From Streptomyces akebiae (GTDB lineage: Bacteria; Actinomycetota; Actinomycetes; Streptomycetales; Streptomycetaceae), in the NCBI RefSeq assembly GCF_019599145.1, contig NZ_CP080647.1, positions 7,750,001 to 7,814,000 on the forward strand: a stretch of DNA of 64,000 nucleotides, in the 5' to 3' direction. The position numbers and the translations under genes were made by a program. The notes beneath the pieces were generated by a model. That model saw only the letters and a program-made list of their open reading frames with translations, was not told where the DNA came from and did not search any database. Positions 12,230 to 23,967 of the stretch are shown one piece after another; position 1 is the first letter of the stretch, and each line of letters begins with the position of its first letter.

Positions 12230-13210
12230 TCACCGGCGGCGGCCACCACCACTGAGGACCACTTCCCGGCACTGCGCGGGACTGCCCCACGCGCTCCGCA
12301 GCGCACGCGCCTTGGTCAGCCAGAGCGACAGGTCGTACTCCGCCGTGTAACCGATCGCGCCGTGCAGCTGCAGCGCCGTGCGCGCTGTCGTGTACGCCGC
12401 CTCGCACGCCGTCACCTTGGCCGCCGCCGCGTCCGCCGGGTCCAGGGTGACCGCCGCCCCGAACACCAGCGGACGCGCGAACTCCAGGGCCACCTTGGCG
12501 TCCGCCAGCCGGTGCTTCACCGTCTGGAACGACCCGACGGGCACACCGAACTGCGTGCGCTGCTTCACGTACGCCACCGTCCTGTCCAGGAGGGCCAGAC
12601 CCACGCCGAGGGCCTGCGCGGCGACCGCGAGCCGCGCCGGGACGAGGGCGTGGGCGAGCAGGGACGGGTCGGCGGCGAGGAGGTCGCCGCCGGGGGAGAG
12701 CCGGGTCAGACGGCGGGCCGGGTCCAGGGACGGGCGCACGGGGCCGTGGCCGGGGGCGAGGCGGAGTTCGCCCGTCTCCGGGGCGAGGGTCAGGCGGGTC
12801 GCCGCCGCGTCCCCGTCCAGCGCGTACGAACTCGGCGAAGGCGCCACCGTCGCCATCGTCTCGCCCGACACCAGCGCCGGGAGCAGGCGCTCGGCCGGGC
12901 CCGGGTCGTCCAGGCCGGCCAGGAGGACCGTCGCCGTCACCGTCTCCACGAGCGGGCCCGGGACCGCGTGCCGACCCAACTCCACGAAGGAGAGCGCCAG
13001 TTCGACGGGGAGCGGACCGACCCCGTCGTACTTCTCCGGCGCCGCCAGCGCGAAGACGCCCGCTTCCGCGAGACGCGCCCACACCGCACGCCCTGCCTCG
13101 TGCTCCCCGCGCCCCCAGGCCCGTACGACGGCGGGTGTCCCGGCGGCCGTCAGCATGGCGTCCAGCGACTCGGCGAACGCCCGCTGCTCGGTGTCCAGGA
13201 GGAAACGCAT
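12230..13210 (-). CDS. Acyl-CoA dehydrogenase, short partner subunit
   Basis: A 326-residue acyl-CoA dehydrogenase-fold protein, shorter than the ~380 of canonical enzymes. The C-terminal FAD-domain motifs are recognisable (RTQFGVPVGSFQTVKHRLAD, LQLHGAIGYTAEYDLSLW). The middle beta-domain is diverged, and no YEGT-type catalytic loop follows. In actinobacterial steroid clusters such subunits pair with a second subunit to form alpha2beta2 FadE heterotetramers, and the gene just upstream on the same strand encodes the likely partner. Placement beside ipdF/kstR2/fadA6 homologues suggests work on a steroid-derived CoA thioester. Its start codon lies within the tandem array described separately. 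Confidence 0.85.
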   Translation of the reverse strand: MRFLLDTEQRAFAESLDAMLTAAGTPAVVRAWGRGEHEAGRAVWARLAEAGVFALAAPEKYDGVGPLPVELALSFVELGRHAVPGPLVETVTATVLLAGLDDPGPAERLLPALVSGETMATVAPSPSSYALDGDAAATRLTLAPETGELRLAPGHGPVRPSLDPARRLTRLSPGGDLLAADPSLLAHALVPARLAVAAQALGVGLALLDRTVAYVKQRTQFGVPVGSFQTVKHRLADAKVALEFARPLVFGAAVTLDPADAAAAKVTACEAAYTTARTALQLHGAIGYTAEYDLSLWLTKARALRSAWGSPAQCREVVLSGGGRRR

Positions 13211-13420
13211 CGGTGGCGGCCCTTCAGGCGAGGGCCACGCGTCGGCGGAGGCCCTTGAGGTCGAGGCCGCGCGTCGGGGCGGCCTTTCGGACGGAGGCCG
13301 CGCGTCGGTGGCGGCTCTTTCGAGTGCGGGTCGCGCATCAGCGGTACTCCTTCAGGAGGGCTCGCATCAGCGGTCTTCACAGGAGGGGCCGCGCATCAGC
13401 GGCGGCCCTTCGGCAGGCCG
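13206..13420 (-). repeat. Seven-unit degenerate tandem repeat between two acyl-CoA dehydrogenase genes
   Basis: Seven consecutive units of 29-33 bp begin at 13206, 13238, 13270, 13301, 13334, 13363 and 13392. Each starts cgc(a/g)tc(g/a)g on the plus strand and continues with a ggcggccctt-like segment. The first unit contains the start codon of the downstream gene and the last contains the stop codon of the upstream gene. The 185-bp spacer therefore seems to have grown by duplicating a junction of stop, ribosome-site-like GAAGGGCC and ATG. Confidence 0.8.
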
Positions 13421-14535
13421 AGGAGGCGCTCGGCGATGATGTCGCGCTGGATCTCGTTGGTGCCGGCGTAGATCGGGCCGGCGAGGGAGAAGACGTACCC
13501 CTCGGACCAGTCGGTGTCCGCCGACTCGCCCTCCTCGCCGAGCAGGTCCAGCGCCGTCTCGTGCAGGGCGATGTCGTACTCGGACCAGAAGACCTTGTTC
13601 AGGCTGGCCTCGGGTCCGATCGGCGTGCCCTCCAGGAAGCGGGAGGCGGCCGCGTGGGTGAACAGCTCGTAGGCGCGGGCGCCGATCAACGCGTCGGCCA
13701 CCGCGTCGCGGGCGGACGCCGGGCTTCCCCGGTCGTGCCAGAGGTCGAGCAGGCGGTGCGCGGAGGCCAGGAAGCGGCCCGGGGACCGGAGCGTCAGCCC
13801 CCGTTCGTTGCCGGCGGTGGACATCGCGATGCGCCAGCCCTGCCCGGGCTCGCCGATGACGTCCTCGTCCGGCACGAACACGTCGTCGAGGAAGAGCTCG
13901 GCGAACGCGGGCCTGCCGTCGAGGCGGCCGATCGGGCGGACCGTCACCCCGGGGGCGCGCAGGTCGAACATGAGGTACGTCAGCCCCTGGTGGGGCCGGG
14001 CGGTCCCGGGCTCACTGCGGAACAGGCCGAACGCCCGGTCCGCGAACGCCGCCCGCGACGACCAGGTCTTCTGCCCGCTGAGCAGCCAGCCCCCGTCCGT
14101 GCGCACGGCCCTGGAGGTGAGCGAGGCCAGGTCGGACCCGGCCCCGGGCTCCGACCAGGCCTGGGCCCACACCACCTCGCCGGAGGCCATCGGCGGCAGG
14201 ACGCGAGCCCGCTGCTCCTCCGTGCCGTGGTCGAAGAGGGTCGGGGCGAGGAGGTTGACGCCGTTCTGGCCGACCCGGCCCGGGGCGCCCGCCGCGTAGT
14301 ACTCCTCCTCGAAGAGCAGCCAGCGGAGCAGGCCCGCGTCGCGGCCGCCGTACGCGGCCGGCCAGTTCACCACCGACCAGCGGTCGGCGGCCAGTTCGGC
14401 CTCCCAGGCGCGGTGGGCGGCGAAGCCCTCCTCGGTCTCCAGGGAGGGGAGCGGCTCCGCGGGGACATGGGCGCGCAGCCAGGCGCGGGCCTCGGCGCGG
14501 AAGGCCTCGTCGGCGGGGGATCGGGCGAGGTCCAT
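13396..14535 (-). CDS. Acyl-CoA dehydrogenase, FadE30/FadE33-like
   Basis: A 379-residue flavoprotein with full acyl-CoA dehydrogenase architecture. Motifs are AQAWSEPGAGSDLASL (FAD/substrate contact), KTWSSRAAFAD, the ERG of the helical domain, and the end IYAGTNEIQRDIIAERLLGLP. The position of the medium-chain enzyme's catalytic Glu (YEGT) is Ala here (YAGT), as in subclasses that use another base or a partner subunit. It probably oxidises a steroid side-chain or ring CoA ester together with the 12230-13210 product (inference from context). The ATG at 14535 follows AAGGAG; the in-frame ATG at 14559 lies in the operator region. Divergent from the ipdF-like SDR. Confidence 0.88.
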   Translation of the reverse strand: MDLARSPADEAFRAEARAWLRAHVPAEPLPSLETEEGFAAHRAWEAELAADRWSVVNWPAAYGGRDAGLLRWLLFEEEYYAAGAPGRVGQNGVNLLAPTLFDHGTEEQRARVLPPMASGEVVWAQAWSEPGAGSDLASLTSRAVRTDGGWLLSGQKTWSSRAAFADRAFGLFRSEPGTARPHQGLTYLMFDLRAPGVTVRPIGRLDGRPAFAELFLDDVFVPDEDVIGEPGQGWRIAMSTAGNERGLTLRSPGRFLASAHRLLDLWHDRGSPASARDAVADALIGARAYELFTHAAASRFLEGTPIGPEASLNKVFWSEYDIALHETALDLLGEEGESADTDWSEGYVFSLAGPIYAGTNEIQRDIIAERLLGLPKGRR

Positions 14536-14552
14536 GGAGCGCTGCTCCTTCC

Positions 14553-14568
14553 CTAACAAGTGTTTGGT
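14553..14568. promoter_or_regulatory. Candidate KstR2-type operator, copy 1
   Basis: CTAACAAGTGTTTGGT lies between the divergent acyl-CoA dehydrogenase and SDR genes, 17 bp from each start. Its inner 14 bases match the mycobacterial KstR2 box AnCAAGnnCTTGnT except for one base. A second sequence with the same CTAACnnnTGTTTGGT frame occurs at the other divergent promoter of the block (21187-21202). A KstR2-like TetR gene lies 0.8 kb away. Confidence 0.6.
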
Positions 14569-14584
14569 AGGTTAGCGTGCCCGC

Positions 14585-15373
14585 ATGAGGAACGTCGACC
14601 CTCCGACGTACGTCCCCGGCCATGGCCTGCTCGCCGGACGCACCGCCGTGATCACCGCGGCGGCCGGCGCGGGCATCGGCGGGGCCACCGCGCGACGCTT
14701 CCTGGAGGAGGGCGCGCGCGTACTGATCAGCGACGCGCACGCACGCCGACTGGGGGAGCACGAGAGTCGGCTGGCCGACGAGTTCGGCGCCGACTCCGTC
14801 GCCGCGCTGCCGTGCGACGTGACCGACGAGGACCAGGTCCGGGCCCTGTTCGAGACGGGTGTCCGACTGCACGGACGACTCGACGTCGTCGTCAACAACG
14901 CGGGCCTCGGCGGCACCTGCGACCTCGTCGACATGACCGACGAGCAGTGGTCCAAGGTGCTCGACGTGACACTGAACGGCACGTTCCGCTGCACCCGGCA
15001 CGCACTGAGACTGATGCGGGACGCCGGTGGCGGCGTGATCGTCAACAACGCCTCCGTCGTCGGCTGGCGCGCCCAGGCAGGCCAGGCGCACTACGCCGCC
15101 GCGAAAGCGGGCGTCATGGCCCTGACCAGGTGCGCGGCGATCGAGGCGGCCGCGTACGGGGTCCGCGTCAACGCCGTGTCGCCGAGCCTCGCCATGCACC
15201 CGCACCTGGCGAAGGTCACCACCCCGGAACTGCTGGAGGAACTGACCGCGCGCGAGGCCCTCGGGCGGTACGCCGAACCCTGGGAGGTGGCCAACGTGAT
15301 CGTCTTCCTCGCGTCCGGCTACTCCTCCTACCTGACGGGTGAGATCGTCTCCGTCAGCAACCAGCATCCCTGA
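14585..15373 (+). CDS. ipdF: Short-chain dehydrogenase, IpdF-like
   Basis: A 262-residue classical SDR. The cofactor motif is TAAAGAGIGGATARRF (about residues 23-38), followed by NNAGLGG, catalytic NNASVV, and the YAAAK of the Tyr-Lys pair (about residue 170). In mycobacteria IpdF oxidises the 5-hydroxyl of a HIP-derived CoA ester during breakdown of steroid rings C and D; the assignment here rests on similarity plus the flanking kstR2, fadA6, ipdC, ipdAB and echA20 homologues. The ATG follows the operator by 17 bp, so the transcript leader is short. kstR2 begins 14 bp downstream. Confidence 0.8.
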   Translation: MRNVDPPTYVPGHGLLAGRTAVITAAAGAGIGGATARRFLEEGARVLISDAHARRLGEHESRLADEFGADSVAALPCDVTDEDQVRALFETGVRLHGRLDVVVNNAGLGGTCDLVDMTDEQWSKVLDVTLNGTFRCTRHALRLMRDAGGGVIVNNASVVGWRAQAGQAHYAAAKAGVMALTRCAAIEAAAYGVRVNAVSPSLAMHPHLAKVTTPELLEELTAREALGRYAEPWEVANVIVFLASGYSSYLTGEIVSVSNQHP

Positions 15374-15387
15374 GGACGAGGAACAGC

Positions 15388-16035
15388 GTGCCGACCAAGA
15401 AGAAGCCCCCGACGACCGCCGGCGACAAGCCCTCCGCCGCGCCCGCCCGCCGCCGGGAACTCCTCGACCGGGCCGCCACGGTCTTCGCCGACCTGGGCTA
15501 CAACGCCACCACCGTCCGCAGGATCGCGGACGACGTCGGCATGCTCGCGGGCAGCCTCTACTACTACTTCGAGTCCAAGGACGCGATGCTGGAGGAGATC
15601 CTGCGGACCTTCCTCGACGAACTCTGGGAGGGCTACGACGCCGTCCTGGACGCCGAGCTGCGCCCCCGGGAGACCTTCGAGGCGCTGGTCGTCGAGTCGT
15701 TCCGCGCCATCGACCGGCACCGCGCCGCCGTCGCGATCTACCAGAACGAGGCCAAGAAGCTGGTCGCGCAGGACCGGTTCCTGTTCCTCGAAGCGTCGCA
15801 GCGCAAGTTCGAGAAGGCATGGCTGGCCACGCTGGAACGTGGCGTGGCCGCCGAGGAGTTCCGGGCCGACCTCGACACCAGGCTCACCTACCGGTTCGTG
15901 CGCGACACGGTGTGGGTCGCCGCTTCCTGGTACCGGCCCGGCGGACAACTCGGCCCGGAGGAGATCGCGCGGCAGTACCTGTCGATGGTCCTCGACGGGA
16001 TCGCCGCCGCACCTGCGGAGCCCACGGAGCACTAG
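15388..16035 (+). CDS. kstR2: TetR-family repressor, KstR2-like
   Basis: A 215-residue regulator. The N-terminal helix-turn-helix is clear (LLDRAATVFADLGYNATTV then RRIADDVGMLAGSLYYYF, about residues 25-60). The ligand domain keeps KstR2-like features: SFRAIDRHRAAVAIYQNEAK, FRADLDTRLTYRFVRDT, and WYRPGG near the end. Mycobacterial KstR2 represses the ring C/D genes until HIP-CoA binds. The GTG at 15388 is preceded by ACGAGGAAC. It is co-transcribed with the ipdF-like SDR and the fadA6-like thiolase, so it would control its own operon. Targets are probably the two operator copies at 14553 and 21187. Confidence 0.82.
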   Translation: MPTKKKPPTTAGDKPSAAPARRRELLDRAATVFADLGYNATTVRRIADDVGMLAGSLYYYFESKDAMLEEILRTFLDELWEGYDAVLDAELRPRETFEALVVESFRAIDRHRAAVAIYQNEAKKLVAQDRFLFLEASQRKFEKAWLATLERGVAAEEFRADLDTRLTYRFVRDTVWVAASWYRPGGQLGPEEIARQYLSMVLDGIAAAPAEPTEH

Positions 16036-16076
16036 AGCTCATTCGGTGAACAACCTCTGACGTCAAGGGAGTCGCC

Positions 16077-17234
16077 ATGGCCGAGGCCTACATCGTCGAA
16101 GCGGTCCGGACGCCCGTGGGGAGGCGCGGGGGAGGGCTCGGCCAGGTCCATCCGGCCGACCTCGGCGCACACGCCCTCAAGGCGCTCGTCGCACGCGCCG
16201 GGGTGGACCCGGCCGCCGTGGAGGACGTCGTCTTCGGCTGTCTGGACACCGTCGGCCCGCAGGCCGGCGACATCGCCCGGACCAGCTGGCTGGCCGCCGG
16301 GCTGCCCGAGGAGGTACCGGGCACGACCGTCGACCGGCAGTGCGGCTCCTCGCAGCAGGCCGTGCACTTCGCCGCGCAGGCGGTGCTCTCCGGCACCCAG
16401 GACCTGGTGGTCGCGGGCGGCGTCCAGAACATGACGATGATCCCCATCGCCTTCGCCTCCCGCCAGGCCGCCGTCCCCCTCGGACTCACGGACGGTCCCT
16501 TCGCGGGCAGCGAGGGCTGGCGGGCCCGCTACGGCGACCGGCCGGTGAACCAGTTCGCCGGCGCCGAGATGATCGCCGCGAAGTGGGGCATCAGCCGGCG
16601 CGACCAGGAGGAGTACGCGCTGCGTTCCCATCGGCGGGCGGTACGGGCCGTCGACGAGGGCCGCTTCGCGCGGGAGACCGAGCCGTACGGTGACGTGACC
16701 GTCGACGAGGGGCCACGCCGCGACACCTCGCTGGAGAAGATGGCCGCGCTGAAGCCGGTCATCGACGGCGGCACCGTCACCGCCGCCTGCTCCTCCCAGG
16801 TCTCCGACGGCGCCGCGGCGCTGCTGCTCGCCTCCGAACGCGCCGTACGCGAGCACGGGCTGACCCCGCGCGCCCGCGTGCACCACCTCTCCGTACGCGG
16901 TGAGGACCCCATACGGATGCTCACCGCGCCGATACCGGCGACGGCGTACGCCCTGAAGAAGTCCGGCCTCACCCTCGACGCGATCGACCTCGTCGAGATC
17001 AACGAGGCCTTCGCGCCGGTCGTCCTGGCGTGGCTGAAGGAGACGGGCGCCGACCCGGAGAAGGTCAACGTCAACGGCGGCGCGATCGCCCTGGGCCACC
17101 CCCTGGGCGCGACCGGCGCCAAGCTGATGACGACCCTCCTGCACGAACTGGAGCGCACGGGCGGCCGCTACGGCCTCCAGACGATGTGCGAGGGCGGCGG
17201 ACAGGCGAACGTGACGATCATCGAGAGGCTCTGA
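16077..17234 (+). CDS. fadA6: Acetyl-CoA acetyltransferase (thiolase), FadA6-like
   Basis: A 385-residue degradative thiolase. The nucleophile is the Cys of DRQCGSSQQA (about residue 92), the His lies in NEAF/GGAIALGHPLGATGAK (about 340), and the second Cys in MCEGGGQANV near the C terminus. All three catalytic signatures are intact and length is typical. In mycobacteria FadA6 performs the thiolytic step after ring C opening. It lies 41 bp after kstR2 on the same strand and is the last gene of that operon; a hairpin region separates it from the convergent ipdC. Confidence 0.87.
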   Translation: MAEAYIVEAVRTPVGRRGGGLGQVHPADLGAHALKALVARAGVDPAAVEDVVFGCLDTVGPQAGDIARTSWLAAGLPEEVPGTTVDRQCGSSQQAVHFAAQAVLSGTQDLVVAGGVQNMTMIPIAFASRQAAVPLGLTDGPFAGSEGWRARYGDRPVNQFAGAEMIAAKWGISRRDQEEYALRSHRRAVRAVDEGRFARETEPYGDVTVDEGPRRDTSLEKMAALKPVIDGGTVTAACSSQVSDGAAALLLASERAVREHGLTPRARVHHLSVRGEDPIRMLTAPIPATAYALKKSGLTLDAIDLVEINEAFAPVVLAWLKETGADPEKVNVNGGAIALGHPLGATGAKLMTTLLHELERTGGRYGLQTMCEGGGQANVTIIERL

Positions 17235-17370
17235 CGGCACGGGTCGCCTTACGGCGGGTCTGTGACGGTCGCGCGGTGTGGGCGGTGTGGGTGGTGTGGG
17301 TGGTGTCTGGTGCGGTGGTCGGGCGTCCGGCGTCGTGTCCCATGAGGGTTGCCGCGCGTCGGGTCCATGA

Positions 17371-17390
17371 GGCCCGCCGTACGGCGGGCC
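17371..17390. terminator. Perfect 20-bp palindrome between convergent fadA6 and ipdC
   Basis: The sequence ggcccgccgtacggcgggcc is its own reverse complement. It lies in the 268-bp gap between the convergent thiolase and ipdC genes. With the second hairpin 26 bp further on, it probably ends transcription from both sides. Confidence 0.55.
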
Positions 17391-17415
17391 CGTGGTGGTG
17401 GCCGGGTGCCGGGCG

Positions 17416-17457
17416 GCGCGTCCGTGGCGGCTGTCGGGGCAGAGGCCACGGACGCGC
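17416..17457. terminator. 13-bp stem hairpin, bidirectional terminator
   Basis: Arms gcgcgtccgtggc (17416-17428) and gccacggacgcgc (17445-17457) pair perfectly around a 16-base loop, 46 bp past the ipdC stop and in the same convergent gap. It is symmetric enough to act for both operons. Confidence 0.7.
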
Positions 17458-17502
17458 TGTGGCGGCGGCGGGCCGCAGGTGCCGGGCGGTGGCCGTCGCG
17501 TG

Positions 17503-18549
17503 TCAGGCGCCGCCGAGACGCTGCCGAACCTCGTCCGCCTCCCGCATGATCCGCTCCACCAGCTCCGCACAGGACGGCAGGTCGTCGATCACCCCGGCGA
17601 CCTGTCCGGCCGCCATCACCCCCAGGTCCGTACGGCCGTCCACCATCGCGGACCTGAGCAGCATGGGCGTGTTGGCGGCGAGCAGGACCTGGCTCCACGC
17701 GAGGTCCTTGCCGTGCCGCAGCGCGAGGCCGTCGCGGACCATGCCGCGCCAGGTGAGCCCCGAGAGCCGCCGGAAGCCCGCCGCGTGCCGTACGGCACGC
17801 ACCAGGGCGCGCGCACGGCCGGACGCCTCCAACGCGCTCACGAACTCCGTGCGCAGCATGCGGTGCGGCAGCCCGTCCACGGCCCGCGTGACCGTGACGT
17901 CCTTGACGGTCGCCGCCAGATAGCGGGCCTTCACCGCGTCCGGAACCGTCGAGTCCGAAGTGAGCAGGAACCGGGTGCCCATCGCCACCCCGGCCGCCCC
18001 GAACGCCAGCGCGGCCACCAGACCACGCCCGTCGTGGAAGCCACCGGCGGCGACGACGGGAATGCCGACGGCGTCCACGACCTGCGGCAGCAGCACGGTC
18101 GTCGACACCTCCCCGGTGTGTCCGCCGCCCTCGCCGCCCTGCACGACCACCGCGTCCGCGCCCCACGCCGCCACCTTCTCGGCGTGCCGCCGGGCGCCCA
18201 CGGACGGGATCACGACCACGCCCGCGTCCTTGAGCTCGGCGATCAGCTCCCTGGACGGCGCGAGCGCGAACGACGCCACCCTGACGCCCTCCTCCACGAT
18301 GATCCGCACCCGCTCCCGCGCGTCGCCCGCGTCGGCCCGCAGATTCACCCCGAACGGCGCGTCCGTGCGGGACCGCACCTCCCGTACGGCGTCCCGGAGC
18401 CGCGCGGGCGTCATCGTCGCGGAGGCCAGGACGCCGAGCGCCCCGGCGTTCGCCGTGGCGGAGACCAGCCGGGGACCGGCCACCCAGCCCATACCGGTCT
18501 GCACGATCGGATGGCGGACGCCGACGAGCCGGGTGAGCGCCGTCTCCAT
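17503..18549 (-). CDS. ipdC: FMN-dependent nitronate monooxygenase/enoyl reductase family protein, IpdC-like
   Basis: A 348-residue TIM-barrel flavoprotein of the nitronate monooxygenase/2-nitropropane dioxygenase superfamily. Motifs are PIVQTGMGWVAGPRL at the N terminus, FGVNLR, QGGEGGGHTGE (about residue 138, phosphate loop), VVAAGGFHDGRGL, and GAAGVAMGTRFL. The mycobacterial orthologue IpdC acts with IpdF on HIP-derived CoA esters, apparently adding a double bond. Its ATG shares one base with the ipdB stop (TGATG), so it is the last gene of the echA20-ipdA-ipdB-ipdC operon. Biochemical role here is inferred from synteny. Confidence 0.82.
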   Translation of the reverse strand: METALTRLVGVRHPIVQTGMGWVAGPRLVSATANAGALGVLASATMTPARLRDAVREVRSRTDAPFGVNLRADAGDARERVRIIVEEGVRVASFALAPSRELIAELKDAGVVVIPSVGARRHAEKVAAWGADAVVVQGGEGGGHTGEVSTTVLLPQVVDAVGIPVVAAGGFHDGRGLVAALAFGAAGVAMGTRFLLTSDSTVPDAVKARYLAATVKDVTVTRAVDGLPHRMLRTEFVSALEASGRARALVRAVRHAAGFRRLSGLTWRGMVRDGLALRHGKDLAWSQVLLAANTPMLLRSAMVDGRTDLGVMAAGQVAGVIDDLPSCAELVERIMREADEVRQRLGGA

Positions 18550-19298
18550 CAGCCCCGGACCTCACGGTCGCGGGTGCCCGCCGGATCGATCACCTCACGG
18601 ATCAACCGCAGCTCCTCCGCCGTGGGGTCCCGGGTGTACGGCACCTCGTCCGGGGCGGCGAGCGCGAAATCGGTCGCCTCCGCCACCTGCTCGACCGTGA
18701 CCCCGGGATGCAGCGAGGCCAGCCGCATCGCGCGGTCGGGCGTCGCGAAGTCGAACACCCCGAGGTCGGACACGACACGCGGCAGGCGGTGGAAGCGGGC
18801 GGCGGCCGGATGCGCGGCCACGCGGTCGTGACCCACCCCGCACACCATGTCGACCTGCTCGACGAAGACCCGCCGGGAGTGCTTCGGAACCCAGTAACTG
18901 GTCGGATTGTTCAGGGTGTTGACCGGCGCTCCCCGCACCCCCAGCAGCTGTCGCCGGGGCCTCGCCCAGTCGCCGACGCAGGAGATGTTCTGGTTGCCGT
19001 ACCGGTCGATCTGGCTCGCGCCCATCATCACGTGCCGTCGGCCGCCGGTGACCAGGGCCAGGTGCCTGCGGTAGGGCAGCCATCCCTCCACCGTGCCGTC
19101 GAGGTCGACGAGCAGCGCCTCGCCGTCGGTCAGCAGCAGGTCCGGCGCGAAGGTCCGCCGGGCGAGGCGCGCGCCCAGCGACGGGATCAGCCCCATCGGA
19201 CTGGCGAGGATCTCCCCGGCCCCGCGCCAGGCCTCGGCGCAGGCGATCACGCAGTACTCGGCACGCGTCGCTCCGCTGGTCATCGGCCCCTCGTTCAC
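18549..19298 (-). CDS. ipdB: CoA-transferase-like subunit beta, ring-opening hydrolase IpdB-like
   Basis: A 249-residue family I CoA-transferase-like beta subunit. Seen are EYCVIACAEAWRGAGEI at the start, a GLIPSLGARLARRTFAPDLLLTDGE-type strand pattern, GASQIDRYGNQNIS (about residues 90-103), and LGVFDFA. In mycobacteria IpdA and IpdB form a hydrolase that opens the last steroid ring (COCHEA-CoA) and do not transfer CoA. The GTG at 19298 is chosen: GGAGG lies just upstream and it overlaps the ipdA stop by 4 bp (GTGA). Tight coupling fits an obligate heteromer. Confidence 0.85.
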   Translation of the reverse strand: MNEGPMTSGATRAEYCVIACAEAWRGAGEILASPMGLIPSLGARLARRTFAPDLLLTDGEALLVDLDGTVEGWLPYRRHLALVTGGRRHVMMGASQIDRYGNQNISCVGDWARPRRQLLGVRGAPVNTLNNPTSYWVPKHSRRVFVEQVDMVCGVGHDRVAAHPAAARFHRLPRVVSDLGVFDFATPDRAMRLASLHPGVTVEQVAEATDFALAAPDEVPYTRDPTAEELRLIREVIDPAGTRDREVRG

Positions 19299-20143
19299 GA
19301 GCCCTCCTTCTCCCAGGCCCGTACGGCCGACCGGTAGGCGGATTCGTCGCCGGAGAGGAACCGCTCGGCGAAGTCCTCCCAGGGCATGGCCGCGTACGTC
19401 TTCTGGAAGGCTTCGTCCCGGCCGTAGTCGGGGGCGCACGAGGTGAAGTGCGCGCCGTTCGGGGCCTCGATCACCCCTGTCACCACGTGGCGGCCGACCA
19501 GCAGCGTCTGCGGCGGGGCCTCCTTCGTCAGCTCGGCCGTGTCCACGATCCGTTCGCAGGAGACGTACGCCGTGTCGGCCGCCTCGCAGAACAGGTCGTC
19601 GAAGTAGGGGTCCGGGCCCAGATACTGGCCGTTGCCCCGCCGATCGGCCCGGTTGACGTGCACGAACGCGGCGTCGAGACGCAGGGCGGGCATGGCGACG
19701 AAGGTCTCCCCGTCGTCGTACGGCGAGGTGACCGTCCGCAGACCGGGGTTGACCCGCATCACGTCCGAGCCGATGCCCGCCCGCACCGGCAGGAAGGGCA
19801 GCCGGTGCGTGGCCGCCCGCAGGCCCCACATGAACATCGCCTCGTCGATCTCCGTCAGCTCGAACGCGCCCCGCTCACGCGCCGCGCGGAAATGGGGTTC
19901 GAGGGGGATGGAGTCCAGGGTGGCGAAGGGGGCGACCAATCTCCGGATGCGTCCGGCGGCGGCGAGCATGCCCACGTCCGGGCCGCCGTACGACACGACC
20001 GTGAGATCGGTGATCCCCGACCGGAGCAGCGCCCGCACCAGAGCCATCGGCTTGCGGCGCGAGCCCCAGCCGCCGATGCCGAGCGTCATCCCGCTCGCCA
20101 GCCGCGAGACGGCCTCGTCGGCGGTCATGGTCTTGTCACTCAC
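19295..20143 (-). CDS. ipdA: CoA-transferase-like subunit alpha, ring-opening hydrolase IpdA-like
   Basis: A 282-residue family I CoA-transferase-like alpha subunit. It has the N-terminal loop TLGIGGWGSRRKPMALV (about residues 20-36), SYGGPDVGML, and a central ELTEIDEAMFMWGLRAA segment, all resembling IpdA and not acetate or succinyl CoA-transferases. With IpdB it should hydrolyse the ring of a cyclohexene-carboxyl-CoA steroid remnant. It starts with GTG at 20143, 8 bp inside echA20, and ends overlapping ipdB. The first bases of the gene abut the 18-bp tandem array that forms the end of echA20. Confidence 0.85.
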   Translation of the reverse strand: MSDKTMTADEAVSRLASGMTLGIGGWGSRRKPMALVRALLRSGITDLTVVSYGGPDVGMLAAAGRIRRLVAPFATLDSIPLEPHFRAARERGAFELTEIDEAMFMWGLRAATHRLPFLPVRAGIGSDVMRVNPGLRTVTSPYDDGETFVAMPALRLDAAFVHVNRADRRGNGQYLGPDPYFDDLFCEAADTAYVSCERIVDTAELTKEAPPQTLLVGRHVVTGVIEAPNGAHFTSCAPDYGRDEAFQKTYAAMPWEDFAERFLSGDESAYRSAVRAWEKEGS

Positions 20144-21164
20144 CGAGGTCCCCCTCCACCGCGTCCCTGCCCTCCACCGCGTCCCTGCCCTCCACCGCGT
20201 CCCTGCCCTCCACCGCGTCCCTGCCCTCCACCGCGTCCCCGCTCCTCACCGCGTCGCTTTCCTCGGCCGCGCCCCTTTCCTCGGCCGCGCCCCTTTCCTC
20301 GGCGGCGCCCCTTGTCTCGGCGGCGCACCTTCTCCCGGACAGCGGACGTGCCCCGGCCGCGCCCTGGGTGGGCGGACGTTCCTTGGCCGCGCCGGCCGTC
20401 CCGGCCTTCCCCGCGGTCCCGGCTCTCCCCGCCGTCCCGAATCTGTCGCGGACCTCGTCGGCCAGCCCGCTGAGGTTCGCCTCGAAGGTGAAACCCTGCT
20501 CGAAGCGGTAGCTGCGGCGGACGTCGACGGGGTCGATGCCGTTGATGGCGGCCTTGGCCAACCGCAGCAGCCGGCCGTCCTTGGCGGCGATCTCCCGCGC
20601 CAACTCCAGTGCGGCGGAGTTCAGTTCGGCACGCGGTACGACCCGCCACACCGAGCCGTGGGCCCGTAGCTCGGCGGCGGTCGCCGTCCGCGAGGTGTAG
20701 TACAGGGCGCGCATCAGATGCGGGGGCACCAGCCGGGCCAGATGCGTCGCCGCGCCCAGCGCGCCCCGGTCCAGCTCCGGCAGCCCGAAGGTCGCGTCCT
20801 CGCTCGCCACGATCGCGTCCGCGTTCCCCACCAGTCCGATCCCGCCGCCCAGACAGAACCCCTGGACGGCGGCGACCACCGGCACCTCGCACTCGTACAC
20901 GGCGGCGAAGGCCTCCGCGCAGCCGTGGTTGGCGCCGATCAACGCGGTGTGCCCCGCCGCCTGGATCTCCTTGATGTCCACCCCGGCGTTGAACCCGCGC
21001 CCCTCCGCACCCAGCACGACACACCGCACCTCGGGATCGCGCCCCGCCCCGCGCACGGCCTCGGCCAGCTCGAACCACCCGCGCACCGGCAGTGCGTTCA
21101 CCGGCGGGAAGTCGACGCTGACGACGGAAATCCCCTTTTCCGGGGACGAGGTGGAGACAGTCAT
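20136..21164 (-). CDS. echA20: Enoyl-CoA hydratase/isomerase family, EchA20-like, with repetitive C-terminal tail
   Basis: A 342-residue crotonase. Residues 1 to ~255 form a normal domain with FNAGVDIKEIQAAGHTALI (first oxyanion strand), VQGFCLGGGIGLVGNADAIVA (second oxyanion loop) and FGLPELDRGALGAATHLARL. In mycobacteria EchA20 hydrolyses ring D of a HIP-derived CoA ester. The last ~85 residues are low complexity and unusual: AGTAGKAGTAG, then GAAEER units, then about five DAVEGR units, encoded by an 18-bp tandem array. Typical crotonases stop near 255-260. The ATG at 21164 is close to the shared operator at 21187-21202. First gene of the ipdABC operon. Confidence 0.85.
   Translation of the reverse strand: MTVSTSSPEKGISVVSVDFPPVNALPVRGWFELAEAVRGAGRDPEVRCVVLGAEGRGFNAGVDIKEIQAAGHTALIGANHGCAEAFAAVYECEVPVVAAVQGFCLGGGIGLVGNADAIVASEDATFGLPELDRGALGAATHLARLVPPHLMRALYYTSRTATAAELRAHGSVWRVVPRAELNSAALELAREIAAKDGRLLRLAKAAINGIDPVDVRRSYRFEQGFTFEANLSGLADEVRDRFGTAGRAGTAGKAGTAGAAKERPPTQGAAGARPLSGRRCAAETRGAAEERGAAEERGAAEESDAVRSGDAVEGRDAVEGRDAVEGRDAVEGRDAVEGDLGE
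20152..20340 (-). repeat. 18-bp tandem array forming the end of echA20
   Basis: About ten 18-bp units run in one phase. Four are identical, at 20161, 20179, 20197 and 20215 (plus-strand unit gcgtccctgccctccacc). Five diverged ones follow (20233, 20251, 20269, 20287, 20305) that drift toward gcgcccctttcctcggcc. In the gene they encode hexapeptides moving from GAAEER to DAVEGR. The identical copies lie at the 3' end, suggesting recent expansion there. Confidence 0.9.
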
Positions 21165-21186
21165 CGGAGCATCAGCTACCTTCCAC

Positions 21187-21202
21187 CTAACGTTTGTTTG
21201 GT
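21187..21202. promoter_or_regulatory. Candidate KstR2-type operator, copy 2
   Basis: CTAACGTTTGTTTGGT shares the frame CTAACnnnTGTTTGGT with copy 1 at 14553-14568. It lies between the divergent echA20 and SDR genes, 22 bp from the first and 28 bp from the second. The left half fits the KstR2 box less well than in copy 1. Finding the same 16-base frame at both divergent promoters of the block is the main support. Confidence 0.55.
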
Positions 21203-21230
21203 GCCTCTCTCCTGCGGAAGGTAGCAGCGG

Positions 21231-21983
21231 ATGCGGCTCAACGGGAAGGTCGCCGTCGTCACCGGCGGCACACGCGGCGTCGGCGCCGGCATCGCCCAGG
21301 CCTTCGCCGAAGCCGGCGCCGAGGTCGTGACCTGCGCCCGCAGACCACCCGAAGTGCCGCTCAAGGGAGCCGAGTTCATACCGCTGGACGTACGGGACCC
21401 CGACGCCGTGCAGCGCTTCTTCGCCGAACTGCCCCGCGTGGACGTCCTCGTGAACAACGCCGGCGGCACGCCCCACCGCCCGCTCACCGCGGCCGACGCC
21501 CGCCGCCACGCCCGCGTCGTCGAACTCAACCTCACCGCTCCACTGACCGTCTCCCTCGCCGCCCACGAGCACCTCCGGCGGGCGGGCGGCGCGATCGTGA
21601 TGATCGGCAGCGTCAGCGGCAGCCGCCCCTCACCTGGCTCGGCGGCCTACGGCGCCGCCAAGGCGGGCCTGGAACACCTCGCGCGCTCCATGGCCGTGGA
21701 GTGGGCCCCGGAGATACGCGTCAACACCCTCGTCCTCGGCATGGTCCGCACCGAGCTCTCCCACCTCCACTACGGCGACGAACACGGCATCGCCGCCGTC
21801 GCCCGCACCGTCCCGCTGGGCCGCCTCGCCGCCCCCTCCGACATAGGCGCCGCGGCGGTCTTCCTCGCCTCCGACGCGGCCGCCTACATCACCGGCGCCT
21901 CCCTCCTCGTCCACGGCGGCGGCGAACGCCCCGCCTTCCTGGACGCGGCGAACACCCACACCGACGAAGGAGAACCACGTTGA
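21231..21983 (+). CDS. Short-chain dehydrogenase (Rv3549c-like position)
   Basis: A 250-residue classical SDR: VVTGGTRGVGAGIAQAF cofactor loop at the N terminus, LVNNAGG, Ser of GSVSGSRPSPG, and YGAAK (about residue 140) as the Tyr-Lys pair. The C-terminal ITGASLLVHGGG is standard. The mycobacterial KstR2 regulon has two SDR genes in the same place next to echA20, which is the reason for the link to steroid catabolism; its exact substrate is unknown. RBS GGAAGG lies 10 bp upstream. It overlaps the next SDR gene by 4 bp. Confidence 0.82.
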   Translation: MRLNGKVAVVTGGTRGVGAGIAQAFAEAGAEVVTCARRPPEVPLKGAEFIPLDVRDPDAVQRFFAELPRVDVLVNNAGGTPHRPLTAADARRHARVVELNLTAPLTVSLAAHEHLRRAGGAIVMIGSVSGSRPSPGSAAYGAAKAGLEHLARSMAVEWAPEIRVNTLVLGMVRTELSHLHYGDEHGIAAVARTVPLGRLAAPSDIGAAAVFLASDAAAYITGASLLVHGGGERPAFLDAANTHTDEGEPR

Positions 21984-22909
21984 GCGGCACACTCCCGTAT
22001 CGCGAAGGGCGGCTCTGCGAAGGGCGCGTGGTCGTCGTGACCGGCGCGGGCCGCGGCCTCGGGCGCGCGCACGCGCTCGCGTACGCCGCCGAGGGCGCGC
22101 GCGTGGTCGTCAACGACCTCGGGGTGGGACCCGACGGCACACCGGACCCCGACAGCCCCGCCGCGCAGGTAGTCGAGGAGATCCGGGCCGGGGGAGGGGA
22201 CGCGGTCGCGCACGGCGGGGACATCGCCACGCCCGACGGCGCCTCCTCCCTCGTCCACACCGCCCTGGACACCTACGGCCGACTCGACACCCTCGTCAAC
22301 AACGCCGGCTTCCTGCGCGACCGCATGCTCGTCAACCTCGACGAGGACGACTGGGACGCCGTCCTCCGCGTCCACCTCAAGGGCCACTTCCTCCCCCTGA
22401 AACACGCGGCCGCCCACTGGCGCGCCGAGACCAAGGCCGGCCGGACCCCGACCGCGCGCATCATCAACACCAGCAGCGGCGCGGGCCTGCTGGGCTCACT
22501 CGGCCAGGGCAACTACAGCGCCGCCAAGGCCGGCATCGTCGGCCTCACCCTCGTCGCCGCCGCGGAACTCGCCCGCTACGGAGTGCAGGTCAACGCCATC
22601 GCCCCCGCGGCCCGCACCAGAATGACCGAGACGGTCTTCGCCGAGACCATGACCGCCCCCGGCACCGGCTTCGACACCATGGCCCCCGAGAACGTCTCCC
22701 CCCTGGTGGTCTGGCTGGGTTCCCCCGCGAGCGACGGCGTCACCGGCCGCGTCTTCGAGACGGAAGCGGGCCGCATCACCGTCATGGAGGGCTGGCACCC
22801 GGGCCCCACCGAGGACAAGGGGGCCCGCCGCACCCCGCGGGAGGCGGGAGAGACCGTACGAAAGCTCTTGGCGGAGGCGCGGGATCCGGGGCCGGTGTAC
22901 GGCGCCTGA
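21980..22909 (+). CDS. Short-chain dehydrogenase (Rv3548c-like position)
   Basis: A 309-residue SDR, longer than average because of an insertion after the first strand pair and a C-terminal extension (MEGWHPGPTEDKG...). Motifs are VVVTGAGRGLGRAHALAYA, VVNDLGVGPDG, LVNNAGFLRDRML, NTSSGAGLLGSLGQGNYSAAKAG. This resembles the dehydrogenase part of multifunctional beta-oxidation proteins. I choose a TTG start at 21980: AAGGAG lies 8 bp upstream, and TTG overlaps the previous stop in TTGA. There is no ATG or GTG near the fold start. It ends the outward-facing operon. Confidence 0.82.
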   Translation: MSGTLPYREGRLCEGRVVVVTGAGRGLGRAHALAYAAEGARVVVNDLGVGPDGTPDPDSPAAQVVEEIRAGGGDAVAHGGDIATPDGASSLVHTALDTYGRLDTLVNNAGFLRDRMLVNLDEDDWDAVLRVHLKGHFLPLKHAAAHWRAETKAGRTPTARIINTSSGAGLLGSLGQGNYSAAKAGIVGLTLVAAAELARYGVQVNAIAPAARTRMTETVFAETMTAPGTGFDTMAPENVSPLVVWLGSPASDGVTGRVFETEAGRITVMEGWHPGPTEDKGARRTPREAGETVRKLLAEARDPGPVYGA

Positions 22910-23016: not shown

Positions 23017-23967
23017 CTACGTGTCGCACTCCAGAACCGTCCGACACAACCCACACCGAGCCCGCACCCGCCCCCGCACCGGCACCCGAATCCGCTGCTG
23101 ACACGTCGGACAGGGAAACGACACCCGCAACTCCCCCCGCTCCTCCGGCGTGAACACATACGGCACGCCCACCCCGGCCACCCCCACCCCCGGCGAAGCC
23201 GCCCGCGGGTCGTCCCACGCATGGCGACGATCCCGCGCGTACCGCCGCCGCCCCGCCCACCCCGCCGCAACCAGCGGCGGCTGCCGCTCGTCACCGCGCG
23301 CCCGTACCCGGCCCGCCGTGTACGCCGCATACGCCTGCGCACTGGTGAACCACACCGACGGATCCTCGCCGAACAACTGCGCCCGCTTGGCCAGCACGTA
23401 CCCGAACTCCTCCGGCGTCAGATACCCCAGCTTCTGCGACGACGCGGCGTCCTCCCGGTACGCGTCCAGCAGCAGCCACCCCGCCCCCAGATACGTCGCC
23501 GCCGTGTCCGTCAGGATCTCGTTCTCACGGACACCGGGAAAGGACAGCCCGAGCCGGTGCAGATAGACGTGCATGACCTCGTGCGCGAGCGCCGCCCCGA
23601 TGTCCCGACGATGCGTCCGGAAGCGGTCGTTGAGCTCGACGAAGTACTCCGGCCCCGCCGCCAGCTCGACATGCGCCGCGTGCGTCATCTCCCGGAACCC
23701 GACGATCATCCGGGCGTCCGGCAGCCGAAAGTGCCGCACCAGCTCCCGCGCCACCCGCTGCGCCCCCAGATGCAGATCGTCGGTGTCGCAGAACGCCACG
23801 TCCACGGGGGCCACGCTGGTGGCGAAGGTCTGGATCGTGTCGGACGAGAGCCGCTTGTACAGCGCGGTGATCGACGCCCGCACGGTGTCCAGATGCGGGT
23901 AGCCGTGCTCGACAGGTCCGCCGTTCGCCACGTCCGCACCCCCGAAAGACGCCTCGATACGTTCCAC
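23017..23967 (-). CDS. Putative zinc metalloprotease with C-terminal zinc ribbon
   Basis: About 316 residues; family not recognised. The central sequence has a zincin motif, LAHEVMHVYLHRLG, with HEVMH as HExxH, and downstream NEILTDTAATYLGAGWLLLD offers a possible third ligand (E or D). No signal peptide or membrane helix is visible, so it is probably cytosolic. The C terminus has two Cys pairs (CPTCQQRIRV and CGLC) forming a likely zinc ribbon. GTG at 23967 is one start; GTG at 23994 and GTG at 23931 (behind GGGGG) are alternatives, and TAGAGT at 23967-23972 could be a -10 element favouring the last. It diverges from the chorismate mutase gene. Confidence 0.7.
   Translation of the reverse strand: MERIEASFGGADVANGGPVEHGYPHLDTVRASITALYKRLSSDTIQTFATSVAPVDVAFCDTDDLHLGAQRVARELVRHFRLPDARMIVGFREMTHAAHVELAAGPEYFVELNDRFRTHRRDIGAALAHEVMHVYLHRLGLSFPGVRENEILTDTAATYLGAGWLLLDAYREDAASSQKLGYLTPEEFGYVLAKRAQLFGEDPSVWFTSAQAYAAYTAGRVRARGDERQPPLVAAGWAGRRRYARDRRHAWDDPRAASPGVGVAGVGVPYVFTPEERGELRVSFPCPTCQQRIRVPVRGRVRARCGLCRTVLECDT

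Follow-up and report, generated by a model that had tools for sequence, protein, structure and literature searches.

Eleven genes at positions 12230-22909 of a 64,000-nucleotide stretch of the Streptomyces akebiae genome (the window; contig NZ_CP080647.1, G000:C1:7750001-7814000) were confirmed by sequence comparison as a predicted KstR2-type catabolic block for rings C and D of steroids, that is, for 3aα-H-4α(3′-propanoate)-7aβ-methylhexahydro-1,5-indanedione (HIP). The block probably encodes a working lower pathway, which would be paired with a remote locus of the same genome and fed by HIP or another ring compound through a route that does not involve HsaC.

Gene content of the block

Gene calling by codon-position G+C in the S. 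akebiae genome (10,549,378 bases in 2 contigs, listed completeness 100%) returned all eleven genes, and all open reading frames were of coding type (Table 1). The original prediction, made from the letters of the window, had proposed a KstR2-regulon-like block in near-mycobacterial order, which is borne out by family scores, repressor, operators and gene order. The coupled starts that it described are also present: TGATG at ipdB/ipdC, GTGA at ipdA/ipdB, an 8 bp overlap of echA20 and ipdA, and TTGA between the two genes for short-chain dehydrogenases/reductases (SDRs). Best matches to other CoA-transferase, crotonase or TetR families were not seen; the families of the block were matched instead. 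Among the matches listed, the closest named relative of IpdB came from S. europaeiscabiei (89% identity), with two further matches scoring higher (97% and 91%).

For KstR2, the three PDB entries in Table 1 were followed by the next TetR entry at only 78 bits. The nearest solved structures of IpdA and IpdB were the IpdAB structures 6co6/6con, while glutaconate CoA-transferases were only distant in the same search. The EchA20, IpdF and FadA6 families all scored above the curated cut-offs of the PRK models that correspond to these gene names (PRK07938, PRK07831 and PRK07801). In the alignment, IpdB carries a glycine in the column of RHA1 Gly57β, a hydrolase-type mark of the β subunit; CoA-transferases have their catalytic glutamate there, according to PMC5380842. 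For IpdA, the residue number expected for the catalytic glutamate did not fall on a glutamate in chain numbering.

The remaining genes were assigned with the help of six genomes of one family (f3) in the same class, whose blocks we call mycobacterial-looking, as read from their neighbours. The sole model matched by IpdC was FabK, below its cut-off, and the protein is 64-68% identical to ipdC products of the six blocks. The ipdE2-type protein (12230) shares 46-52% identity with the gene product at the same place in five of them, and the Rv3548c-type SDR shares 66% with that of a Nocardia farcinica gene at the same place. On a tree, the product of the gene at 13396 groups with E1 proteins of mycobacterial-looking and Streptomyces blocks, apart from FadE30, which rules it out as FadE30. 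The two fadE genes of the original prediction are thus both present as acyl-CoA dehydrogenase genes and can be refined to an IpdE1/IpdE2-type pair. Searches of the PDB gave no match for the ipdE1 protein at 1e-40 and none for an EchA20 fragment at 1e-30.

Table 1 Genes and predicted operators of the block, in window coordinates.
Feature	Position	Strand	Basis of assignment
ipdE2-type acyl-CoA dehydrogenase, small partner	12230..13210	-	NCBIfam IpdE2 154 bits, below cut-off 450; position and identity
ipdE1-type acyl-CoA dehydrogenase, FadE31-like	13396..14535	-	tree
KstR2-like operator CCTAACAAGTGTTTGGTAG, ipdE1/ipdF divergent promoter	14552..14570	.	0 mismatches
ipdF (SDR)	14585..15373	+	PRK07831 448 bits, cut-off 336
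kstR2 (TetR repressor)	15388..16035	+	PDB 2ibd 214 bits; KstR2 entries 4w97/4w1u 192/191 bits
fadA6 (thiolase)	16077..17234	+	PRK07801 701 bits, cut-off 591
ipdC (FabK-like reductase)	17503..18549	-	TIGR03151 249 bits, below cut-off 453; order and identity
ipdB	18549..19298	-	6co6_B 308 bits; Gly at RHA1 Gly57β column
ipdA	19295..20143	-	6co6_A 331 bits
echA20 (ring D hydrolase), repetitive C-terminal tail	20136..21164	-	PRK07938 407 bits, cut-off 260
Second KstR2-like operator, echA20/SDR divergent promoter	21183..21201	.	2 mismatches
SDR, Rv3549c type	21231..21983	+	PRK07856 379 bits, cut-off 255
SDR, Rv3548c type, TTG start overlapping previous stop	21980..22909	+	identity and order only

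Two stretches within the block look repetitive. An 18-bp tandem repeat of about nine copies (20152-20313) lengthens the echA20 frame by a repetitive tail of ~90 residues, so that EchA20 has 342 amino acids, compared with 198-272 in other called relatives (n=44). To the eye, positions 13211-13395 between ipdE1 and ipdE2 resemble a series of degenerate copies of a GATGCG...GAAGG-like short unit.

Predicted operators and the fadD3/fadE30 gap

Palindromic KstR2-like predicted operators stand at both divergent promoters of the block. A first scan of the window used AnCAAGnnCTTGnT, the mycobacterial KstR2 motif, and gave a single-mismatch site at 14555-14568 in the ipdE1/ipdF promoter; the other single-mismatch site (34835) is intragenic and outside the block. 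When two mismatches were allowed, this motif matched 20 times in the window vs 5.9 expected. As a positive control of AnCAAGnnCTTGnT, a perfect operator was found between fadD3 and fadE30 in all six mycobacterial-looking blocks. We then derived the consensus CCTAACAARYGTTTGGTRG from promoters of Streptomyces loci. At up to three mismatches, 40 loci of the genus (chosen from 137 IpdB-positive genomes, genes labelled automatically) contained 73 sites, 71 of them outside called genes, compared with 0 in shuffled sequence that preserved single-base composition only; this count is circular because the motif was built from those same loci. The whole 10.55 Mb genome of S. akebiae served as an independent test and gave 2 matches at the same threshold, both in the block, with 0 for a reversed control pattern.

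The operator at 14552..14570 corresponds to the fadD3/fadE30 operator of the six f3 blocks. In five of these, fadD3 is followed by ipdE1, ipdE2 and a fadE33-like gene, G426 having an additional echA13-like gene in between, and the opposite side of the operator carries fadE30, ipdF, kstR2 and fadA6, interspersed with other genes in some; the sixth block (G247) is cut by the end of the compared stretch. In the window, this operator is directly flanked by ipdE1 and ipdF. Neither gene calls nor block comparison placed fadD3 or fadE30 inside the block, and the proposed lack of fadD3 in the window and of A/B-ring genes near the block was likewise borne out. One might read the block as the decaying remains of a complete steroid pathway: the two genes are absent from precisely the operator that they flank in mycobacterial-looking genomes, one window operator has two mismatches, and echA20 has a tail built of repeats. 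The eleven frames are all open, however, and both the operators and the order of the genes are found again across Streptomyces; we consider decay very improbable.

Distribution in Streptomyces and across the phylum

By these sequence criteria the block is a common trait of the genus. IpdB was found at E 1e-40 in 137 of 199 Streptomyces genomes, that of S. akebiae included, and a homologue of the neighbouring window gene 23017-23931 is present in 26 of the 40 compared loci, so the earlier view of the block as the mark of one unusual strain does not hold. All eleven genes were labelled in 20 loci. In the other 20 at least one label was lacking, owing to contig ends, thresholds, genes missed by the caller or real differences; L072, L073, L076 and L077, for instance, lacked fadA6 to ipdE2 in the compared stretch. 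Some loci differed in arrangement. A DEAD-box-helicase-like gene lies between ipdC and fadA6 in L054, L058, L067, L075 and L078, accompanied in L054, L075 and L078 by a tyrosine-phosphatase-like gene (both named by reading), and L081 (G091) has a rearranged block with another gene order, no kstR2 label and an IpdB of only 61% identity.

HsaC at ≥73% identity occurred in 13 of the 199 genomes, all 13 with IpdB and a close FadE30, which leaves 124 of the 137 block-carrying Streptomyces without close HsaC. Relatives of HsaC at 43-47% were present in nine more genomes, eight of them with IpdB, weaker matches being left uncounted. A close FadE30 (≥74%) was found in 30 of 199 genomes by whole-genome search and inside the compared stretch in 2 of the 40 loci. 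In a phylum control of 246 genomes, 23 had IpdB. HsaC accompanied it in six of six f3 genomes (1e-86 or better), in none of seven Streptomyces (with one 36% match at 9e-47) and, at 1e-40, in none of the ten carriers of other lineages (G214, G222, G233, G237, G249, G261, G299, G329, G360 and G417).

A remote locus is co-inherited with the block

A remote catabolic locus of ~65 kb lies 2.0 Mb from the block, at G000:C1:about 5728-5793 kb. Among its products are a FadD3-family ligase, scoring 785 bits against a cut-off of 657, and a FadE30-like dehydrogenase that groups with FadE30 on the tree. Further products are two-subunit-type dehydrogenases, an SDR, luciferase-like monooxygenase (LLM) oxidoreductases, amidohydrolases, a reductase resembling HsaB (187 bits, under the cut-off of 230) and lipid-transfer-type thiolases, one at 588 bits (cut-off 469) and another at 397 (below 421). 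In a comparison with six other genomes, selected for having both marker genes, most of these catabolic genes recur in four, five or all six; one amidohydrolase recurs in only two.

Counted from uncorrected match lists, a FadD3-type ligase is present in 129 of 137 IpdB-positive vs 3 of 62 IpdB-negative Streptomyces, and a FadE30-type gene (block or remote copy) in 126 of 137 vs 3 of 62. The place of the FadD3 gene is verified in S. akebiae and assumed for weaker matches, among the matches listed. The IpdB-negative genomes with a marker were G001 and G079 (both markers; 78-79% complete), G105 (ligase, 51%) and G144 (FadE30-type).

To take phylogeny into account, we used an rpoB tree of 100 of the 199 genomes, hand-picked among the rpoB matches listed (51 of the 62 IpdB-negative and 49 of the 137 IpdB-positive), which includes G105 and G144 and, deliberately, 7 of the 11 that have IpdB but no FadE30-type match. 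For the remote ligase, G152, G012, G105, G183 and G195 were removed from the positives, their only listed matches being block-type or distant paralogues; for the remote FadE30-like gene, 20 genomes with only a close block-type copy were removed. The block label changes 19 times on this tree. Across 15 independent pairs differing in IpdB, the remote ligase differed in the same way in 11.4 on average, the opposite way in 0 and not at all in 3.6 (median sign p 0.001), and the remote FadE30-like gene gave 10.5, 0 and 4.5. Block and remote ligase were discordant in 7 of the 100 genomes, all IpdB-positive without ligase. The remote locus thus appears to be co-inherited with the block across Streptomyces, the two being mostly present or absent together.

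Such an association could also arise without any functional tie if both were accessory regions of large genomes that are lost together, and on the tree the carriers of the block do have bigger genomes, with a mean of 8.95 vs 7.76 Mb. Genome size above the median, however, was not significantly associated on the tree (5.1 pairs the same way, 1.7 opposite, 8.2 without difference; median p 0.375). The sole control gene, pcaG, is accessory, catabolic and similarly frequent (119/199), yet it showed no association with the block in counts (84/137 vs 35/62) or in pairs (2.2, 3.6 and 9.1, not significant). We therefore regard a non-functional association as rather unlikely.

Upper-pathway genes elsewhere in the genome

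HsaC had no match in the S. akebiae genome at E 1e-40. The query, a plasmid protein of Streptomyces sp. NBC_00841, falls short of the cut-off of the NCBIfam HsaC model (376 vs 450 bits) and of a biphenyl-diol dioxygenase model (331 vs 366 bits); the adjoining HsaD and the nearby HsaA of that plasmid pass their cut-offs. The same query finds homologues in the six f3 genomes at 1e-86 to 1e-94. For HsaA, the best score in S. akebiae was 163 bits vs a cut-off of 450, which none of 14 control genomes passes either and the NBC_00841 plasmid protein does (595 bits). KstD is encoded at G000:C1:7154173-7155804 (L217; PRK07843 935 bits, cut-off 788). Of the three genes that the original prediction named for a search elsewhere in the genome, a FadD3-family ligase and KstD were thus found, and HsaC was not.

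Whole steroids might still be degraded by A/B-ring enzymes not close in sequence to HsaA and HsaC, which would accord with the KstD score and the HsaB-like reductase of the remote locus. Yet no steroid-type neighbour was recognised in the 4.6 kb KstD locus, and the protein has a leader-like N-terminus by reading; together with the HsaC query that works in f3 genomes and the low HsaA score, this makes the proposal improbable in our view.

Joint clustering in one distant genome

We compared the surroundings of IpdB genes in nine of the ten carriers outside Streptomyces and f3 (G249 was left out, and G261 offered 4.3 kb only); in G214 and G299 the caller based on G+C at third codon positions gave no genes and tblastn was used. 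In G417, a distance of ~12 kb or less separates ipdABC-echA20 from relatives of the S. akebiae FadD3-family ligase (55%), of its dehydrogenase pair (64% and 45%) and of an LLM protein (52%); a relative of a further ligase (49%) lies within about 20 kb. Near the IpdB genes, G360 has an amidohydrolase (62%) and a dehydrogenase (62%), G329 an amidohydrolase (65%) and G237 an LLM protein (54%), which is weak evidence because those families are large. No relative of the remote locus at ≥50% was found in the compared stretches of G222, G233, G261, G299 and G214, nor in the six f3 stretches except for FadD3 (about 48-51%) and FadE30. Taken together, the co-inherited remote locus and the joint cluster in G417 favour a dedicated route that would feed the block.

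Proposed role and alternatives

From the gene set, operator sites, absences and co-inheritance seen in these genomes, we infer repression, a joint pathway and a class of substrate. We read the block as a KstR2-type regulon whose products would degrade the final two rings of a steroid-like (methylhydrindane-dione) skeleton; the ligase and dehydrogenase that act on the propionate side chain are not among them. Enzyme activities are assigned by analogy with mycobacterial and rhodococcal work, as given in PMC5380842: EchA20 would hydrolyse ring D and IpdAB ring C, IpdF and IpdC would also act in the pathway, and IpdE1/E2 and FadA6 would carry out β-oxidation of the opened product, with KstR2 repressing at the two operators. 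In most carrier Streptomyces the unlinked remote locus would supply a FadD3-family CoA ligase and a FadE30-like dehydrogenase. Rings A and B would not be opened via the HsaA/HsaC route; HIP or a related bicyclic acid would be taken up, or made from another polycyclic terpenoid by the remote locus. The same source relates that a streptomycete grown on HIP accumulated 4-methyl-5-oxo-octanedioic acid (MOODA; Hashimoto and Hayakawa 1977), which agrees with a lower pathway accepting HIP in a streptomycete.

The original prediction had left open bicyclic steroid remnants or a different polycyclic substrate, and both alternatives remain; its strain-specific part falls with the genus-wide block. We tentatively suggest, at less than even odds, that the remote locus is a second, HsaC-independent upper pathway in most carrier Streptomyces and some distant actinobacteria. 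It would turn a polycyclic terpenoid other than a steroid into a hydrindane acid, whose breakdown the KstR2 block would complete. Parts that may belong to it are the FadD3-family ligase, two-subunit-type dehydrogenases, LLM oxidoreductases, amidohydrolases and lipid-transfer-type thiolases with DUF35-like partners. As a special case of the lower-pathway reading, the substrate may be HIP, or other bicyclic remnants, that other steroid degraders excrete; the remote locus would then give only ligase and β-oxidation enzymes and otherwise serve something else. The FadD3-family ligase, the MOODA report and the lack of HsaC or HsaA at the thresholds used would fit such cross-feeding. However, the remainder of the remote locus is largely conserved as well, including an amidohydrolase, LLM oxidoreductases, lipid-transfer-type thiolases and more dehydrogenases, and several relatives of this locus are found close to IpdABC genes in G417; a bare supply of ligase does not explain this. 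We see cross-feeding as possible, though somewhat doubtful.

Several observations weigh against a working lower pathway paired with the remote locus. With a KstD in the genome, ring A chemistry is not entirely lacking. The analysis identified no transporter, Mce4 uptake not having been searched for. The remote FadE30-like proteins form a sister or paralogous clade, with 59% identity to the plasmid FadE30 of NBC_00841 vs 66-69% for FadE30 of the f3 blocks. Among the 137 block carriers, 11 have no FadE30-type match, 8 no FadD3-type match and 3 neither, and the two IpdB-negative genomes with both markers, G001 and G079, fall outside the tree set, not being among the rpoB matches listed. In a 100 kb stretch around the remote locus no operator match was found, the best having 5 mismatches. 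The locus is therefore not obviously under KstR2 control, and the genome-wide and 100 kb scans rule out its membership in the KstR2 regulon by operator.

Comparison with known systems

Among the papers listed in a literature search that mostly did not cover subscription papers, none was seen to describe a Streptomyces KstR2 block that lacks ring A/B genes. In PMC5380842 the HIP pathway is treated as the end of steroid degradation, and a survey of 57 Streptomyces genomes detected steroid pathways in 2 of them (PMC4810484). Set against IpdB in 137 of 199 genomes here, this would mean either that Streptomyces widely consume the steroid remnants of others or that the ring C/D machinery serves an unrecognised class of compounds. 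Our data suggest that Streptomyces use the block on leftover or different ring compounds. Block and remote locus may also give genes to the 1977 report of conversion of HIP to MOODA in a streptomycete.

The window block resembles the KstR2 regulon, or HIP cluster, of mycolic-acid actinobacteria as outlined in PMC5380842, with the same families in nearly the same order, operators at homologous divergent promoters and a KstR2-type repressor. Unlike that cluster it has no fadD3, fadE30 or third (fadE33-like) fadE, and a close HsaC is absent from most carriers in Streptomyces. The linear plasmid of Streptomyces sp. NBC_00841 (NZ_CP108854.1) carries all eleven genes, with protein identities of 61-87%. 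The plasmid cluster adds FadE30, an EchA13-like gene and a FadD3-family ligase (703 bits, cut-off 657), besides HsaA and HsaD above cut-off, HsaC-like and KstD-like proteins below it, and HsaB, HsaE-G, KshA and KshB labelled by reading. The plasmid, typed mobilizable, seemingly carries a whole steroid pathway at about 690-790 kb (L041, L010 and L042). A fadD3 homologue outside the HIP cluster is also described for Steroidobacter denitrificans in PMC5380842; in contrast to the reading proposed here, that organism degrades whole steroids according to the same paper.

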